Source: Beijerinckiaceae bacterium
Lineage (GTDB): Bacteria > Pseudomonadota > Alphaproteobacteria > Rhizobiales > Beijerinckiaceae
Length of the DNA stretch: 64,000 nt
NCBI GenBank assembly: GCA_019745195.1
Contig: JAIETL010000059.1
Coordinates: forward strand, 29,450 to 93,449
Reading direction: 5' to 3'
Shown: positions 12,160 to 30,749 of the stretch, one piece after another
Layout: each line of letters opens with the position of its first letter
Numbering within the stretch: position 1 is the stretch's first letter
Notes under the pieces: model-generated
What the model was told of the DNA's origin: nothing
Database searches by the model: none
The model's input: the letters and a program-made list of their open reading frames with translations, nothing else
Program-made: the position numbers and the translations under genes

Positions 12160-12398
12160 CGGATGACATCGCAAATTGGGACACCGATCCGGCCTATCGA
12201 GAGCTCAAGCGCAAGTTCGATGCCGGCGAGATCACGCGCGAGAAGCTGCTGGAGGGCGGCTGGCTTTTCATGCGCGTCCAAGCCGCCGTCGGGGCTGAGC
12301 GCTGGAAGCTCATGTCGGAGATCCTGGCGACGGAAGAGCCGGACGTCGAGGCGGCGCTGGCGATCAAGAACGGCATGCCGGGCATCCCGCCGAAGTGA
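12156..12398 (+). CDS. small hypothetical protein
   Basis: MTDDIANWDTDPAYRELKRKFDAGEITREKLLEGGW...; ATGA overlap. Confidence 0.55.
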   Translation: MTDDIANWDTDPAYRELKRKFDAGEITREKLLEGGWLFMRVQAAVGAERWKLMSEILATEEPDVEAALAIKNGMPGIPPK

Positions 12399-12463
12399 GG
12401 CGCAGACGGTCCCGCTGCGTGCCGATTCGGGTGCAGGTGCAAGCCACAACAAGGAAAACGACG

Positions 12464-12937
12464 ATGACGGGAGAAAAGATGACGGCTGAGGATTGGCAGC
12501 GCCTGGCCGATGCGTACCGTCAACACGTGCCGCCCGAACCCGTGGTCGACACGGACCCTGAGGTCGCCAGGCGCCGAGAGCAAGCCCGTCGTGCCGTCGG
12601 CAGTCTCTATACCAGCGGCCGCCGCCCTTCGCTTGAATTCGTCGTGCTCACCGAGTGGTGGGTCAACGGGGTGATCACGACCGACGAAGCAATCGAGAGG
12701 ATCAAGGGCGCCGCCGAACAGCAGTACCGCCCCCCGGTGACGCCGGAAGAGCGCTGGACTGCTGGGCTGATCGGCTTTGATCAGATGCGGGCCGAGATCG
12801 GCCGCGGTGACTACGTGAAAATTGAAATCGAGGCAGCGCAGGCGGCTGGCCATCAGGCGTCTCTTGAAGCGCTGTATGCGTACGTGCGCGGCGAGATCTC
12901 GCTCGAAGAGATGACCGCTAAGAAGGGTAACGACTGA
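12464..12937 (+). CDS. hypothetical protein with an antitoxin VbhA-reminiscent C-terminal motif
   Basis: C-terminal ASLEALYAYVRGEISLEEMTAKK resembles the yvxGeIsldEl element; weak. Confidence 0.5.
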   Translation: MTGEKMTAEDWQRLADAYRQHVPPEPVVDTDPEVARRREQARRAVGSLYTSGRRPSLEFVVLTEWWVNGVITTDEAIERIKGAAEQQYRPPVTPEERWTAGLIGFDQMRAEIGRGDYVKIEIEAAQAAGHQASLEALYAYVRGEISLEEMTAKKGND

Positions 12938-22944: not shown

Positions 22945-23318
22945 GCATGCCGATCACCCTGGCCGAGCAGCGGGACCTCCTTCGCGATCGCCTCGAAATT
23001 GCGAAGGCGGTTGGGCTGACTTCGGCAGTCGTTGAGGTCGACTTTCTGCTCTTCTCGGCGTCGAAGAAGGCGCTCGCTATCCTCAACGCAGCATTGGCAG
23101 AACGCGCCGCCGCGCTCGATCTCAAGTATCAGTACGGCGCGACCATCGAATCTGGCGCCGGCCACAAGCCCAGGCCCTCAGCCCCGCTGAGGCAGCCGCA
23201 CTTGCCCTTGGGTGCCACAGGGGGTCTGGCGATAACGCCGCCCAATGCGAAGCCCGCGCGCATGCGCCCCCGGGTGCCACCCGGCCCGGATGCCGACGAT
23301 CTCCTGATTACTTTTTAG
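22941..23318 (+). CDS. hypothetical protein with Pro-rich linker and SSB-tip-like C-terminus ...GPDADDLLITF
   Basis: ATGA overlap; C-terminal tail shared with the ORF ending at 26669. Confidence 0.55.
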   Translation: MSMPITLAEQRDLLRDRLEIAKAVGLTSAVVEVDFLLFSASKKALAILNAALAERAAALDLKYQYGATIESGAGHKPRPSAPLRQPHLPLGATGGLAITPPNAKPARMRPRVPPGPDADDLLITF

Positions 23319-23412
23319 AGGCCCCGGCCCTGCCTCAGGCGGCTCGCGCGAGCCGCCTCGGGGATGGCCAAGCCCGGCGATCCAGTCACCTTTAAAGTTG
23401 CGTGGAGTACAC
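23319..23412 (+). promoter_or_regulatory. structured leader element, family 1 copy A (94 bp)
   Basis: Near-identical to 26669-26762; contains a 22-bp palindrome AGGCGGCTCGCGCGAGCCGCCT and conserved GTTGCGTGGAGTACAyATG. Confidence 0.75.
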
Positions 23413-23823
23413 ATGGCAGACACCCCCGATTACCGCTTCGAGACCGCGAACGACCACATTTACGACATGACGGAGCAGCACCGGCGTTGGGAAGTCCTCG
23501 ACGATCTCGATGATCCACACGTGGTCGCGGAGATGATCGCCGATGGCGACGTCGAGATCGATCCGACGGGCTCGCTGATCCGGATGACGAAGCACGGGCT
23601 CGCGTGTGCGGCGCATCGATCGCAGGATTGGGATGACCACCATTTTCCCACCCAGTTTCAAACGATGACCGTGCGTCAATACGCCAAGCACCGCGGCGTG
23701 CCGCCCGGCGTCATCGAGGCTGCTTGCAAGGATCGGATCGCGTTCGCGATGTGGGGCGGCAAGATCGATGTCGAGGTCGCCGACAAGCTGTGGCCCAACA
23801 ACCCGGGTGCCAAAGATGACTGA
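23413..23823 (+). CDS. hypothetical protein
   Basis: MADTPDYRFETANDHIYDMTEQHRRWEVLDDL...; SD GGAG. Confidence 0.6.
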   Translation: MADTPDYRFETANDHIYDMTEQHRRWEVLDDLDDPHVVAEMIADGDVEIDPTGSLIRMTKHGLACAAHRSQDWDDHHFPTQFQTMTVRQYAKHRGVPPGVIEAACKDRIAFAMWGGKIDVEVADKLWPNNPGAKDD

Positions 23824-24325
23824 GACCGCACTGCTCAAGCGCCCCCGCTCCATCGCCGGCAGCGCCCTCGACGCCGCCATTGCGCGGCACCTGGCGGGTT
23901 GGGGATTCGATGTCGTCTACCGCCCCGACGACGACGTCTTCGATCGCCTGGCGATCGTACCGCACGCAATGACGACCGATGGCTTCATCGTCGATGCCAT
24001 CGCCGCCAGCCACATCTCGGCGGCCATGGCGTGCGCGATGCCCATCGATCTGATCTATCTCGACCCGTCCGCGTGGATCTTCGACACTCGCCTGGCCTCC
24101 ATGGAAGTGCCGCCGGCGTTCCAGATCGCGACCGATTCCGACGTCAAGAAAATCGACGGCGCCGTGAAGCGCACGGGTCGCCTTTGCGGTCGCTCGCTCA
24201 AGCGCCCGATGGTCTCTTTCACCAGGCCCCTGCTGACGCTGGCGATCGAGCTTCGCCCGACGCCGCGGACCGTGAACGCCGAGAGGGACGATCTCCGGCA
24301 GGCGCACATCCTCGACTACATGTAG
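23816..24325 (+). CDS. hypothetical protein
   Basis: Overlaps the upstream ORF by 8 nt. Confidence 0.55.
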   Translation: MTETALLKRPRSIAGSALDAAIARHLAGWGFDVVYRPDDDVFDRLAIVPHAMTTDGFIVDAIAASHISAAMACAMPIDLIYLDPSAWIFDTRLASMEVPPAFQIATDSDVKKIDGAVKRTGRLCGRSLKRPMVSFTRPLLTLAIELRPTPRTVNAERDDLRQAHILDYM

Positions 24326-24350
24326 CCCGATTCTAGGAATCCAGCCCTAC

Positions 24351-24418
24351 TTCTAAGCGTTTTTACGCAGTAGGGCCGGTTTCTAATCGTTTTTACGCGC
24401 CGATTACGATTTTTACGC
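24351..24418. repeat. iteron-like repeats with core TTTTTACGC x3
   Basis: Cores at 24360-24368, 24390-24398 and 24410-24418 (spacing 30 and 20 bp); first two share TTCTAAkCGTTTTTACGC. Confidence 0.65.
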
Positions 24419-24422
24419 AAGC

Positions 24423-24481
24423 GTGAATATTTTTGTTCACACCCCCTTGCGCCTCCGTTAAATGAGAATATATTTATTCAC
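24423..24481. promoter_or_regulatory. two operator-like inverted repeats GTGAATATTTTTGTTCAC and GAGAATATATTTATTCAC
   Basis: 18-bp elements at 24423-24440 and 24464-24481, 41-bp register, AT-rich. Confidence 0.6.
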
Positions 24482-24529
24482 ATTAGGCAGCCAGAACGGA
24501 AGCCTCGCAACCGCCCCAGGAGGCACATC

Positions 24530-25009
24530 ATGGCTACTCAGTTCATCGCCCTGTTCTCCGACACCGCCGCTCAGAACGCCATCCTCGCCACCGGCGAGAC
24601 CGCCGACCAGGCTATCTCGACCGCTCTCTCGAACCTCGGCGGCGACCTCCGCGCCGAGGACTTGATCGCCCAGCCGGTCACCAGCCGTCTCGGCGCGCTG
24701 CTGGACACCGGGACGGACGTGAAGTCTTGGGCCAATCGCGAGGACGGTCGGGCCGACGTCTACCGCGGCCAGATCACGGACAAGGATGTCGAGACCGCGC
24801 TCAAGGACGCCGGCGGCTTCTACATGTACGTGCTTGAAAACGACGACACCGAGGAGATCAGCGTCGAGTATTCGCCGGTTCAGCTTAACATCAAGTGGTC
24901 CGAGGAGTGGACCGAGATCAATGAGATCGCGCCCTGCGAAGCAGGTTGGGCTGCGCAGTCGAAGAACCCCAAGGCCGAAATGAGGACCCTGCTCTCCCGC
25001 CGGCCTTGA
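24530..25009 (+). CDS. hypothetical protein
   Basis: RBS region cgcaaccgccccaggaggcacatcATGG shared with 25120 and 26069 genes. Confidence 0.6.
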   Translation: MATQFIALFSDTAAQNAILATGETADQAISTALSNLGGDLRAEDLIAQPVTSRLGALLDTGTDVKSWANREDGRADVYRGQITDKDVETALKDAGGFYMYVLENDDTEEISVEYSPVQLNIKWSEEWTEINEIAPCEAGWAAQSKNPKAEMRTLLSRRP

Positions 25010-25119
25010 TCACTCGCACGGACCGCCGGGGCACCCCCGCCCCGGCCATCCTGTGAGCCCGTTTGAACGCGGGTTCACACGATGGCCACCAGGTCATCCC
25101 AACACCCTAGGAGGGCATC
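25010..25119 (+). promoter_or_regulatory. structured leader element, family 2 copy C
   Basis: Hairpin 1 CCGGGGC/GCCCCGG (25026-25045); hairpin 2 GGCCATC..TGTGAGCCCG / CGGGTTCACA..GATGGCC (25044-25087); then AGGAGGGCATCATG. Confidence 0.75.
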
Positions 25120-25536
25120 ATGAGGAATCGCACTTTCACGATCACCGACCCGCTGCACGGCCTCACCGGTGAGCTCGGCGACATCGTCTACAGGGACGGC
25201 GTGCCCTTCTCCGAGAAGGAGGTCTTTGAGGTCTCGACCGGGCGCCTCGTCTGCAAGATGCTCGCGCCGATGAGCAGCGGCACCGCCTGCATCATGGCTA
25301 CGATCGCGGCGGTCGAGAAGGCCGATCTGGCGCTGCTGTCCGGCGAGACCCAGCGCGTCGAGCTCGACCGCGGCGGCGACGGGCGCTGGTGGATCACGAC
25401 CCGCATCCGCAGCGAGCAGACCTGCGGAGAGTGGGTCAAGGCCTCGCACATGGCCTTCGCCGAGCGGCATCTCGCCCAGGTCCAGCTGCGCCGGATGGTC
25501 CGCGCGAAGGTCGCGAACATGGCCGAGGCGGCGTAA
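25120..25536 (+). CDS. hypothetical protein
   Basis: MRNRTFTITDPLHGLTGELGDIVYRDG...; SD AGGAGG. Confidence 0.6.
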   Translation: MRNRTFTITDPLHGLTGELGDIVYRDGVPFSEKEVFEVSTGRLVCKMLAPMSSGTACIMATIAAVEKADLALLSGETQRVELDRGGDGRWWITTRIRSEQTCGEWVKASHMAFAERHLAQVQLRRMVRAKVANMAEAA

Positions 25537-25808
25537 TGTCCGAGCCCCGCATCTGGACGCCCGACGAGGTTCGCATCGTCGCCGCAGCACTGTACGGATC
25601 GTCGTGGCAGACCCCGCTTGCGAAGGCGATCGAGGCCGATTCCGGGCGGCCGTTCCCGCAGAACCGGATTGCGAAATGGTACATGGAGAGCGGGGGCCGG
25701 GGCATCCCCGAGTGGCTCCAGCCCCGGCTCACGGCACTCTTTATCTATCTCTACGGGATCACCGAGGACGAGCGACAACGGGCCCTGGAGATCATCGCCG
25801 AGCACTGA
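25536..25808 (+). CDS. hypothetical HTH-like protein
   Basis: MSEPRIWTPDEVRIVAAALYGSSWQTPLAKAI...; overlaps previous stop (TAATG); paralogous N-terminus at 26391. Confidence 0.6.
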   Translation: MSEPRIWTPDEVRIVAAALYGSSWQTPLAKAIEADSGRPFPQNRIAKWYMESGGRGIPEWLQPRLTALFIYLYGITEDERQRALEIIAEH

Positions 25809-25930
25809 AAGAAGAAAGGCGCCAGGATTGCCCCGGGGCTTCTTGGCCCGATGGGCGTGACCTCATCGTAATCAACCCGGCCGGCACGCGCGAGCACACC
25901 GTCTTCATCCCGTCCTGGATCGAAGCCTGA

Positions 25931-26068
25931 TCACGCAGACCGCCGGGGCGACCGCCTCGGCCATCCTGTGAGCCGTCCCCGCTCTCTGGAGCGCGAGCGC
26001 CCTGGCAGGCCAGGGACAGTTCACAAGATGGCCACCCGGTCATCGCAACCGCCCAGGAGGGCATCATC
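25931..26068 (+). promoter_or_regulatory. structured leader element, family 2 copy D
   Basis: Hairpin 1 CCGGGGC/GCCTCGG (25943-25960, G-U kept); hairpin 2 GGCCATC..TGTGA / TCACA..GATGGCC (25959-26033) with a different inner domain; then AGGAGGGCATCATCATG. Confidence 0.75.
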
Positions 26069-26398
26069 ATGCAGAAGACTTTCTATTGCGCGCTCCATGC
26101 CGACACTGCCGACCAGCGCGAGATCCTGGCTTACGATCCCGATCCGGAAGTCGCCCTTGCTTATGCCGCAGTCAAACACGGCATCGTGGAATCCCAGATG
26201 ATCACCGTGCAGGCGACCCGTCGCCTTTCGGAGATGCTGGATTTTTTGAACTGCCCGACCTGCTTCAGGATCACGCCCAACAACCAGGTCGATGTCGTGA
26301 CATTCGAAGAGCTGGCGTACAGGCCGGCGACCCCGGCTGATGGCCTTGAAGAAGAAGAAGCAGAGAAGGCGAAGAAGGCGGAGGAGGAGGGTGAGTGA
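26069..26398 (+). CDS. hypothetical protein with CPTC motif and charged C-terminus
   Basis: MQKTFYCALHADTADQREILAYD...NCPTCFRITP. Confidence 0.6.
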   Translation: MQKTFYCALHADTADQREILAYDPDPEVALAYAAVKHGIVESQMITVQATRRLSEMLDFLNCPTCFRITPNNQVDVVTFEELAYRPATPADGLEEEEAEKAKKAEEEGE

Positions 26399-26669
26399 GG
26401 TCAGGATATGGACGCCCGACCCGGTCCGCTTCGTCGCCTCAGCGCTCTACGGGGAGCGCTGGCAGAGCCCTCCCCGACCCGGCGCTCCAGCACCACCACC
26501 AGGCGATCGTCGAATCCCTGGACGCCGAGCCCACCCCGGCGCGGCGAAGCCGGCCATGGCGCTGGGTGCCGCGCCGACGATCAAGATGCCCCCGCTGCGG
26601 ACGCCGCCGCCGAAGGCTCCGAGGAAGGTGACCGGGCCGGACGAGCAGGATCTCCTTATTCCATTTTGA
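26391..26669 (+). CDS. degenerate paralog of 25536 N-terminus joined to a Pro-rich ...GPDEQDLLIPF tail
   Basis: VSEVRIWTPDPVRFVASALYGERWQ matches MSEPRIWTPDEVRIVAAALYGSSWQ; tail matches the 22941 ORF. Confidence 0.5.
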   Translation: MSEVRIWTPDPVRFVASALYGERWQSPPRPGAPAPPPGDRRIPGRRAHPGAAKPAMALGAAPTIKMPPLRTPPPKAPRKVTGPDEQDLLIPF

Positions 26670-26762
26670 GGCCCCGGCCCTGCCTGCGGCGGCTCTTAGC
26701 GGAGCCGTCTCGGGGATGGCCAAGCCCGGCGATCCAAGTCACCCCAGTTGCGTGGAGTACAT
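26669..26762 (+). promoter_or_regulatory. structured leader element, family 1 copy B (94 bp)
   Basis: Near-identical to 23319-23412; stem GGCGGCTC/GAGCCGTC retained by a G-U pair, loop changed. Confidence 0.75.
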
Positions 26763-27209
26763 ATGAGCATCATCGAGCATTCCGAGACCGCTGCCCCCGA
26801 GCCGAGCATCGCTCCGCTGGTCACCCTCACGACCGAGGACGTCGTTGTCTGCCGCGAGGTTTACAATCGCATCGTCGACGACCGGTTCACGATGGCAGAG
26901 TACAAGTACATGAAGGCCCTCGCTGCGCGGACCGTCACCGACGAGTCGCTCATGCGCTGGCACGTCTTTGATCGCGTGCCCTGGGTCAGCTACAGGCGCC
27001 CGATCGAGAAGCGCCTCGCGAAGTCAACGTCGGAAGACATCTGCTACTGGACGTACACGAAAATCCCCCGCGGCGAGCGAGTGCTGCGGACCGTGGGCGA
27101 CTCGGCCAACGACACGAACCGCGCCGTCCATTCGAAGCTGGCTTGCCTACTCTACAGCCTGCTCGAAGACTACGACGTGCCCCTTTGGTACCGGATGGCG
27201 AAGCTCTGA
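26763..27209 (+). CDS. hypothetical protein
   Basis: MSIIEHSETAAPEPSIAPLVTLTTEDVVVCREVYNRIVDD... Confidence 0.6.
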   Translation: MSIIEHSETAAPEPSIAPLVTLTTEDVVVCREVYNRIVDDRFTMAEYKYMKALAARTVTDESLMRWHVFDRVPWVSYRRPIEKRLAKSTSEDICYWTYTKIPRGERVLRTVGDSANDTNRAVHSKLACLLYSLLEDYDVPLWYRMAKL

Positions 27210-27854: not shown

Positions 27855-27939
27855 CCCACCAGATTGTGGGTTTCCTCACGACGAGTGCGGCGCGAGTCCA
27901 ATTATCAAGTACTATCCCTTGGCGGGGATAGGAGACGAG

Positions 27940-28971
27940 ATGAAAATCGACGTTGCCAAGCCGGATGCCGAGCGACATCCGAATTTGAGGTCACTGAACA
28001 CAGTGGTCCTAAAAGACGGCCCGAAAGTTCGGAAGGTCGCGAAGATCACCAAAATTCGCGACCATAATACCGGGGCGCCTCATCACGATTCTCTCAGCTT
28101 GAAAAGCTACAAGCTCAATCCAGTGTCCTGTGATCTTCAGCAGGAACGAAGCCTCAGTCTTGAGGGTGAGGAAATCACCCGGTTGACGGATTTCCTTCAG
28201 GCGTTGCGGGACGGCTCCGTGCCGGATAGGGCCGGAAGCTTCGTTGTTCTGAATGCAGCAGGGAAGGAAGCCGAGACCCTGCGGCAGATGGCCGATCTTG
28301 GTGACGGCGCGAAGCTGGACGCCCTTGCCACTCTGATGCGTCAGGCCGCTTCGACCCCAGGTGTGCTGGCCAAGCTCGCGGCCAAGCTGTCAGAGGACGA
28401 AGGCTTCTTGGAGAAAGCGGCCACGGCGCTTAACCTGGAGGTCTATCGCAGCGCTGTCCGAGACCTCGAAGCCCTAATCGCGACGAGCAACAGGGAGGCC
28501 GACTTCCAGAGTTTCCTGGAGACGAACCCATGGATGTTCGGGAGTGAGTACAGCGCCGTTCTCGACCGTCGTCGTTGGACACGTGATGAGCAGCTGGACT
28601 TTCTGGCACGCCTTACGACGGGCGGCGATGTGGAGGTCATCGAGATCAAGACGCCGATGCAAGGCCAGCCACTTTTTCTGAAGGACAGCTCGCACGCCAC
28701 TCTTTATCCCGGCGCGCCGCTGACGAAGGTGATCGCCCAGGTCCAAAACTATCTGGAGAGGCTCGACCGCGACCGAAACGGGATACTGGCGAACGACGGC
28801 GTCGACGTCACCAAGATCCGGGCGAAAGTCATCATTGGGAGCGAAGGTGACGCGGATCAACAGGCGGCCTTGAGGCGCTTGAACGGCCACCACCACCGCA
28901 TCCAGATCATAACCTTCGATGGGCTGCTAGCGATCGCGCGCCGGGTTCTCGCCTACCTAGAAGGGGGCTAG
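27940..28971 (+). CDS. sduA: Shedu immune nuclease family protein (SduA, DUF4263)
   Basis: C-terminal EADFQSFLETNPWMFGSEYSAVLDRRRWTRDEQLDFLARLTTGGDVEVIEIKTP matches the Shedu PD-(D/E)xK-like core. Confidence 0.8.
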   Translation: MKIDVAKPDAERHPNLRSLNTVVLKDGPKVRKVAKITKIRDHNTGAPHHDSLSLKSYKLNPVSCDLQQERSLSLEGEEITRLTDFLQALRDGSVPDRAGSFVVLNAAGKEAETLRQMADLGDGAKLDALATLMRQAASTPGVLAKLAAKLSEDEGFLEKAATALNLEVYRSAVRDLEALIATSNREADFQSFLETNPWMFGSEYSAVLDRRRWTRDEQLDFLARLTTGGDVEVIEIKTPMQGQPLFLKDSSHATLYPGAPLTKVIAQVQNYLERLDRDRNGILANDGVDVTKIRAKVIIGSEGDADQQAALRRLNGHHHRIQIITFDGLLAIARRVLAYLEGG

Positions 28972-29056: not shown

Positions 29057-29478
29057 ATGCACATGTCGCCCGCCGTCCTCGGCCCGCCGATCTTCCTGCC
29101 GGTATACCTGAAGGCGGTGCGGGCGGGCTTTCCGTCGCCTGCGGACGATTACCTGGACCAGCCCATCGACCTGTCGCGGGCGCTGATCCAGAACGCGCCG
29201 GCCACCTTCATCATGACCGTCGCCAGCGACAGCGCGATCGATGTCGGCATCTTCGACGGCAGCCTGATCACGGTGGATCGCAGCCTCATGCCCAAGGACG
29301 GCGATGCCGTCGTCGTCGACGTCAACGGGAGCGCAGCATCAAGATTTTCAGGATTACCAGGGGCCGATCAAGTCTCGCGTTCGGCAACCGGCGCTACCCC
29401 GAATACGACCCTGGCCCGGACGCTGAGATCAACGTCTTTGGCGTCGTGACCAACACGGTGCGGCGGTTCCGGCGGTGA
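29057..29478 (+). pseudogene. umuD: UmuD-like S24 peptidase, frameshifted
   Basis: FPSPADDYLDQPIDLSRALIQNAPATFIMTVASDSAID...GDAVVVDVNG, then frame shift near 29327 to RSIKIFRITRG...[16 protein letters not shown]. Confidence 0.7.
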
Positions 29479-30749
29479 CCCGCTCGTTCGCCCTAATCGA
29501 CGGCAACAGCTTCTATTGCTCCTGCGAACGCGTGTTTGATCCGAAGCTCCAGCGGCGCCCGGTGATCGTGCTCTCGAACAACGACGGCTGCGCGGTCGCC
29601 CGGACCGCCGAGGCGAAGGCGCTCGGGATCAAGATGGGCGCGCCAATGTTCTCGATCCACGACCTCTGCAAGCGCGAGGGCGTCGTCGTCTTCTCGTCCA
29701 ACTACACCCTGTACGGCGACATGAGCCGCCGCATGAACACCGTCTACCAGCGCTTCTCTCCCGACATCGAGATCTACTCGATCGACGAGAGCTTCCTCGA
29801 CCTGACGCCGGTGGCGCCGGAGCAACGCGAAGAACTCGTTCGTGACCTGCGCACGACGGTCTCCACTTGGACCGGCGTTCCCACCTGCGTGGGAATCGGC
29901 CCGACGAAGACCCTGGCGAAACTCGCCAACAAGATCGCCAAGACGACTCCTCAGCTCCGCGGGGTCTGCGACCTGACCAGCGAGGAGGCCCGGCGGGAAT
30001 GGCTGCCCCTGTTCCCGCTTGAGGATGTCTGGGGCATCGGTCGCGCCAGTCAGGCCAAGCTCGGCGCCTTCGGCTGCAAGACGGCCGCGACGTTGCCGCG
30101 CTCGATCCCAAGCTGGCCAGAAAGACACTGACCGTCGTCGGCGAGCGGACCATCCATGAGCTTCGCGGCCAGCCCTGCATCGACCTGGAGACAGTGGCGC
30201 CGACCCGAAAGGGCTGCGCTGTTACCCGGTCGTTCGCCGGCCGCGTTGATTCCTTGGAGATGATGCAGGAGGCCATCGCGGCCCATGCAACCCGCCTCGG
30301 GGAGAAGCTCAGGCATCACGGCTTGGCGACCACGTCACGGTTTTTTTCCACACCAGCCCCTTCGATAACGGCCCGTCCCGCAGCGTCTCGACCACAGTGG
30401 ATTTTCCCGAGGCCAGCAACGACACCCTGGTCCTGGTCCGGGCGGCGAAGTGGGGAGCCCGGCGGATCTGGAAGAACGGCTACCGGTATTCGAAGGCCGG
30501 CCTGATGACGGTGGACCTTGTCCCGCTGGAGGCCTCGCAGCGCGCCCTGATCGGCGCCCTCGATCGCGAGAAGAGCGGCCGCCTGATGGAGGCCCTGGAC
30601 GCTTGCAACCAGAAGCATGGCAGCGGGTCTGTGTTCTCGGCGGCGTCGGGGATCGCCACCAAAAGAAGGCCTGGATCACCAAGTTCGACATGCGGTCGCC
30701 GCGGTACACGACGCGACTTGAAGAGGTTCCGGTAGTAGCGGCGGCTTGA
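29475..30749 (+). pseudogene. umuC: UmuC-like Y-family polymerase with three -1 frameshifts
   Basis: [19 protein letters not shown]...[12 protein letters not shown]; homologous segments continue in frames 0, 2, 1, 0 with breaks near 30088, 30325 and 30662; ends ...FDMRSPRYTTRLEEVPVVAAA. Confidence 0.75.

Follow-up and report, generated by a model that had tools for sequence, protein, structure and literature searches.

Genes and Spacers at the Locus

The window, i.e., the whole stretch of 64,000 nucleotides that was analyzed, contains a run of small plus-strand genes with two homologous spacers among them, designated here copies A and B. The features are as follows:

24530–25009, plus strand: small gene P0001, 159 aa, assigned to no family; copy A begins with its stop codon
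25007–25119 (to 25122 with the start codon), plus strand: spacer copy A, beginning with the TGA that ends the 24530 gene and reaching the ATG at 25120
25109–25114, plus strand: Shine-Dalgarno AGGAGG of A, read in the sequence
25120–25536, plus strand: cargo gene P0002, 138 aa, without a significant family match
25536–25808, plus strand: small gene after the first cargo gene, 90 aa, weakly matching two functionally uncharacterized phage families; a duplicate of its start lies at 26391
25929–26068 (to 26071 with the start codon), plus strand: spacer copy B, preceding the 26069 gene and running from TGATCAC (about 25928) up to the ATG at 26069
26055–26060, plus strand: Shine-Dalgarno AGGAGG of B, read in the sequence
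26069–26398, plus strand: cargo gene P0003, 109 aa, distantly paralogous to P0001 (33% over 57 aa)
26391–26468, plus strand: diverged duplicate of codons 1–26 of the 25536 gene, 18 of 26 residues kept, the remainder unrecognizable

The duplicated unit is larger than the spacer, as it comprises the spacer, a cargo gene, and a small gene, of which the cargo alone is unrelated (P0002 and P0003 look unrelated as judged by eye). Pfam and NCBIfam gave no significant family for P0001, P0002, P0003, or the 25536 protein, and no viral relatives of P0001, P0003, or the 25536 protein were found. Two matches to P0002 were rejected: a viral one (L017) extends over just 46 residues, in a reading frame that looks unrelated, and another (G219, E 2.4e-4), which has one internal stop, was judged spurious. 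Homologs of P0001 and the 25536 gene are neighbors in one congener (G055, contig 81), where the spacer is absent.

The surroundings encode a Prim-Pol protein, an AAA ATPase, a VbhA-like antitoxin, a Shedu-like protein, an S24 peptidase, and a Y-family polymerase, and the nearest plasmid matches are to Bosea and Methylobacterium; the region resembles an element that is either integrated or carried on a plasmid. The protein of 27919–28971 ends in the C-terminal domain of Shedu SduA (E 8e-14) and may represent an anti-phage defense gene of the same element, and 12395–12937 encodes a VbhA-type antitoxin domain (E 4e-10). The Y-family polymerase gene appears to be split into ORFs at 29475–30131 and 30397–30735; its G055 homolog (L044:6343–7623) is one frame of 426 aa, and the gene at 29475–30735 is likely frameshifted.

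No consensus promoter turned up when 24300–26800 was scanned for sigma-70 sites, so the operon is assumed. Upstream of the 24530 gene, the AT-rich segment 24350–24480 contains three TTTTTACGC repeats (24360, 24390, and 24410), the sole copies in the window, together with the related inverted repeats GTGAATATTTTTGTTCAC (24423) and GAGAATATATTTATTCAC (24464), and is a probable promoter/operator region judging from these repeats. A sequence-only reading of this DNA had presented the spacers as leaders; since copy A begins at the stop codon of the preceding gene, this wording is doubtful for A, which is more likely intercistronic than a leader.

Homology and Alternative Pairings of the Spacers

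Copies A and B are homologous, their local alignment scoring 68 against a maximum of 35 among 1000 shuffles. The alignment has three conserved blocks, separated by the loop of hairpin 1 and the interior of hairpin 2; the end common to both copies is GGTCATC-CAAC-CC-AGGAGGGCATCAT, and in both copies the conserved structure stands directly before a strong Shine-Dalgarno site, AGGAGG. The stems are located as follows:

25028–25043, plus strand: A hairpin 1 (P2), GGGGC/GCCCC; in the alternative state it grows to 25025–25046, CCGGGGC/GCCCCGG
25943–25960, plus strand: B hairpin 1 (P2), CCGGGGC/GCCTCGG, arms 25943–25949 and 25954–25960, G-U retained
25044–25087, plus strand: A hairpin 2 (P3), GGCCATC-C-TGTGAGCC / GGTTCACA-C-GATGGCC
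25959–26033, plus strand: B hairpin 2 (P3), GGCCATC-C-TGTGAGCC / AGTTCACA-A-GATGGCC, 43-nt interior
25081–25098, plus strand: A alternative hairpin (P4), GATGGCC/GGTCATC, incompatible with the base of P3 and predicted to dominate in A (~0.96)
25938–26041, plus strand: B closing stem, GACC 25938–25941 / GGTC 26038–26041, forming a three-way junction; probability ~0.79

The hairpins described in the sequence-only reading were borne out, including the hairpin 1 arms with the G-U kept and the hairpin 2 arms with a mismatch at the same position in both copies (C.C in A and C.A in B), but the anatomy needed revision. Hairpins 1 and 2 share a GG (25044–25045 in A; 25959–25960 in B), so that their full versions are mutually exclusive, and both P4 and the GACC/GGTC junction stem had been missed. 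The interiors of hairpin 2 do differ as claimed (A, 12 nt; B, 43 nt). The last segment, which had been ascribed to the 24530 gene as well, is shared by that gene only as approximately TCGCAACCGCCC-AGGAGG, a weak match of 81% over 21 nt.

GATGGCC has two possible partners, the upstream GGCCATC (P3) and the downstream GGTCATC (P4), and both pairings are unchanged between A and B. Partition functions predicted different states for the two copies, with A in P4 (~0.96) and B in P3 (pair probability of the GGCCATC/GATGGCC stem ~0.95), and the energy gap between the P3 and P4 states was 3.0 kcal/mol in A and 1.7 kcal/mol in B. In neither predicted state is AGGAGG buried by the large stems; it lies in or beside a small CCC/GGG hairpin and is partly paired. 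Masking of the Shine-Dalgarno site by GATGGCC was rejected, as pairing with GGGCATC beside this site was predicted at ~3% or less.

Another duplicated pair of hairpin spacers lies before small genes at 23318–23416 and 26668–26766 (score 130 versus a shuffle maximum of 30), in which stem pairing survives a C-to-T (G-U) change and the loops differ. Kinship of A and B with these spacers was not detected, the similarity not being above shuffles (p 0.07–0.22).

Folding Strength and Apparent Constraint on the Stems

Copy A folds at −56.9 kcal/mol (z = −4.6) and copy B at −66.8 kcal/mol (z = −3.1), and for each of them 0 of 200 shuffles folded as well; an equally long stem occurred in just 2 of 150 random 130-nt segments from the window. 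On the coding strand, a stem-loop lies between the stop codon and the next Shine-Dalgarno site, which is the position of an intercistronic hairpin. Because the antisense strand folds as well as the sense strand in A (−56.8 versus −56.7 kcal/mol) and better in B (−77.2 versus −66.8 kcal/mol), action as RNA is no more than plausible, and a palindrome working at the DNA level has to be weighed beside it.

Divergence was counted in the ungapped shared alignment columns 11–53 and 97–128, sorted by a structure derived from the same two sequences (n = 2), and changes were found in 2 of 48 paired columns (4%) versus 7 of 25 unpaired columns (28%; Fisher p = 0.006). For comparison with coding sequence, we used codons 1–26 of the 25536 and 26391 small genes, which were duplicated along with the spacer; 23 of their 78 positions differ (29%), evenly across codon positions. 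Paired spacer sites change more slowly than this coding block (p = 0.0004), and unpaired sites are no different from it (p = 1.0). Of the two stem changes, one converts G-C to G-U, which is legal in the sense RNA alone, and the other converts C-G to C.A at columns 53/97, where B has lost the uppermost pair of the shared part (on the antisense strand this would be a tolerable G-T). No pair had changed on both sides in RNAalifold with the two sequences. The stems having been kept while the remainder drifted suggests a constraint on the stems, although gene conversion could give the same pattern; the slow change fits a functional structure, which plausibly acts as RNA.

Searches for Relatives

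At the gathering threshold, none of the 4227 Rfam families matched in the window, and with the threshold relaxed to E up to 5 in the region 23900–27000, no match overlapped A or B. A third copy was found neither in the own genome nor in 66 congeners or 394 family genomes by pattern, BLAST, and covariance model searches, the methods varying by set. The covariance model recovered only A and B at E ≤ 0.01 in 67 genus and 394 family genomes, under stricter filters by which weak homologs could be lost. The hairpin pattern and a 116-base BLAST query gave only the own copies in the 67 genus genomes, the extra matches of 20–43 bases being short and GC-rich. No spacer match was obtained by blastn in plasmids and phages, and spacer relatives were not found in viral contigs.

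Several candidates were examined and rejected. The pattern GATGGCCACCNGGTCATC had 19 matches in viral contigs, 0 of them with the upstream GGCCATC arm, and a 21-base pattern had one match in genome contigs, located in a Chloroflexi sequence that lacks the hairpin arm; both results were attributed to chance. Covariance-model matches in L061, L062, L058, and L056 contained many broken pairs. An intrinsic terminator was dismissed, as a T-run is missing and neither A nor B has a terminator-like site on the plus strand, and so was an integron attC, the core sites RYYYAAC / GTTRRRY being absent around A and B on both strands. A REP element was likewise rejected, with just two copies in 5.4 Mb.

Homologs with compensatory changes, by which a conserved structured RNA family is recognized, were not found in the genomes searched. 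The sequence-only reading had seen the signature of a functional, possibly undescribed RNA, with Rfam, a covariance model, and further members outside the window as points to be checked. Retained stems with a divergent interior stand (2/48 versus 7/25), but two paralogs, no covariation, and antisense folding that is equal or better do not establish a new functional RNA; Rfam offered no match, the model found A and B alone, and the own genome of 5.4 Mb held no further member.

Discussion

Rather than a widespread new RNA family, the hairpin spacer is probably a local structure for gene control or mRNA protection. Our preferred explanation, held tentatively and with slightly less than even confidence, is that A and B are an intercistronic element that insulates or stabilizes the downstream cistron and was spread by local duplication. 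A block of hairpin spacer, cargo gene, and small 25536-type gene would have been duplicated locally, with the cargo exchanged later. A polycistronic mRNA, probably starting upstream of 24530, would carry the spacers, and their GC-rich stems would form in the stretch that separates the preceding stop codon from the next Shine-Dalgarno site. The stems would most likely be cis-acting, serving as a barrier against exonuclease and ribosome read-through, and the folded insulator would leave the next AGGAGG accessible, giving the downstream cistron its own mRNA stability and translation rate. The analysis shows that the copies are homologous, that they fold well, and that paired sites change more slowly; for this scheme we infer co-transcription, action at the RNA level, and an effect on the mRNA.

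Known structures offer partial likenesses. In the gal operon, the E-hairpin between galE and galT blocks 3′–5′ exonuclease digestion (PMC9239205). Copies A and B resemble it in having a GC-rich stem-loop right after the stop codon and before the next Shine-Dalgarno site, and intercistronic hairpins of the gal type can stop exonucleases and shape the cistron ratio (PMC9239205). However, A and B are larger, with several stems, mutually exclusive pairings, and two paralogous copies. With REP elements they share an extragenic position, a palindromic nature, the similarity of their copies, and a possible mRNA-stabilizing role, although REPs are short sequences that recur at multiple sites in a genome (PMC12306157), whereas A and B are two adjoining and much longer copies. 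The cis-regulatory leaders of Rfam, such as riboswitches and ribosomal-protein leaders, are similar in being structured, in preceding a start codon, and in having alternative pairings; A and B, however, match 0 of the 4227 families and are without phylogenetic covariation.

An inverted repeat that is equally good on the antisense strand could also be a palindrome acting as DNA, either as an operator or protein-binding site for the element's regulator or as a promoter of recombination enabling cargo exchange between the conserved flanks. The exchanged cargo gene flanked by conserved blocks would agree with this, and the small flanking gene may be DNA-binding, as far as its weak phage-family matches can indicate. 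We nevertheless regard it as unlikely, since an interior spacing that differs by 31 bp between the copies is unusual for an operator, attC core sites occur on neither strand, and two copies only do not make a REP element. A functionless duplication that included a GC-rich palindrome, with arm-to-arm or copy-to-copy gene conversion accounting for the low arm divergence, also appears unlikely. Palindromes are prone to gene conversion, and there are only two paralogous copies, with 0 elsewhere in 66 congeners and about 390 family genomes; this reading is opposed by the contrast between 29% change in the coding block, 28% in the unpaired spacer, and 4% in the stems, and by the replacement of the interior in one copy with the surrounding pairing intact.

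The alternative pairings raise the further question of a two-state cis-regulatory RNA, riboswitch- or attenuator-like, in which GATGGCC would pair with GGCCATC (three-way junction) or with GGTCATC (P4 plus full hairpin 1), and the balance would be tipped by a ligand, a protein, or the movement of ribosomes, with a resulting change in access to the start site. Both pairings being unchanged in A and B, with predicted occupancies of ~96% P4 in A and ~95% P3 in B across a gap of 1.7–3 kcal/mol, would suit such a switch, but the Shine-Dalgarno site and start codon are strongly buried in neither predicted state and GATGGCC pairs with GGGCATC next to the Shine-Dalgarno site at ~3% or less. Moreover, GGCCATC and GGTCATC are near repeats, so that the alternative could be a by-product, homologs are absent from the sets searched, and the cargo genes have no common pathway hinting at a ligand; such a switch is quite improbable in our judgment. 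That it is confined to one mobile element, its opposite default folds setting two neighboring small genes to opposite responses to one signal, is a very improbable elaboration.

Two paralogs give no support to the claim of an undescribed regulatory RNA family; a new family would need independent homologs, and without further ones the duplicated spacer is a local curiosity. The locus also illustrates how small genes of an accessory element are exchanged between conserved flanks. If the stems act in the mRNA, the locus would be a small natural experiment, in which one hairpin spacer is present twice, with differing interiors, opposite predicted default folds, and unrelated genes downstream.
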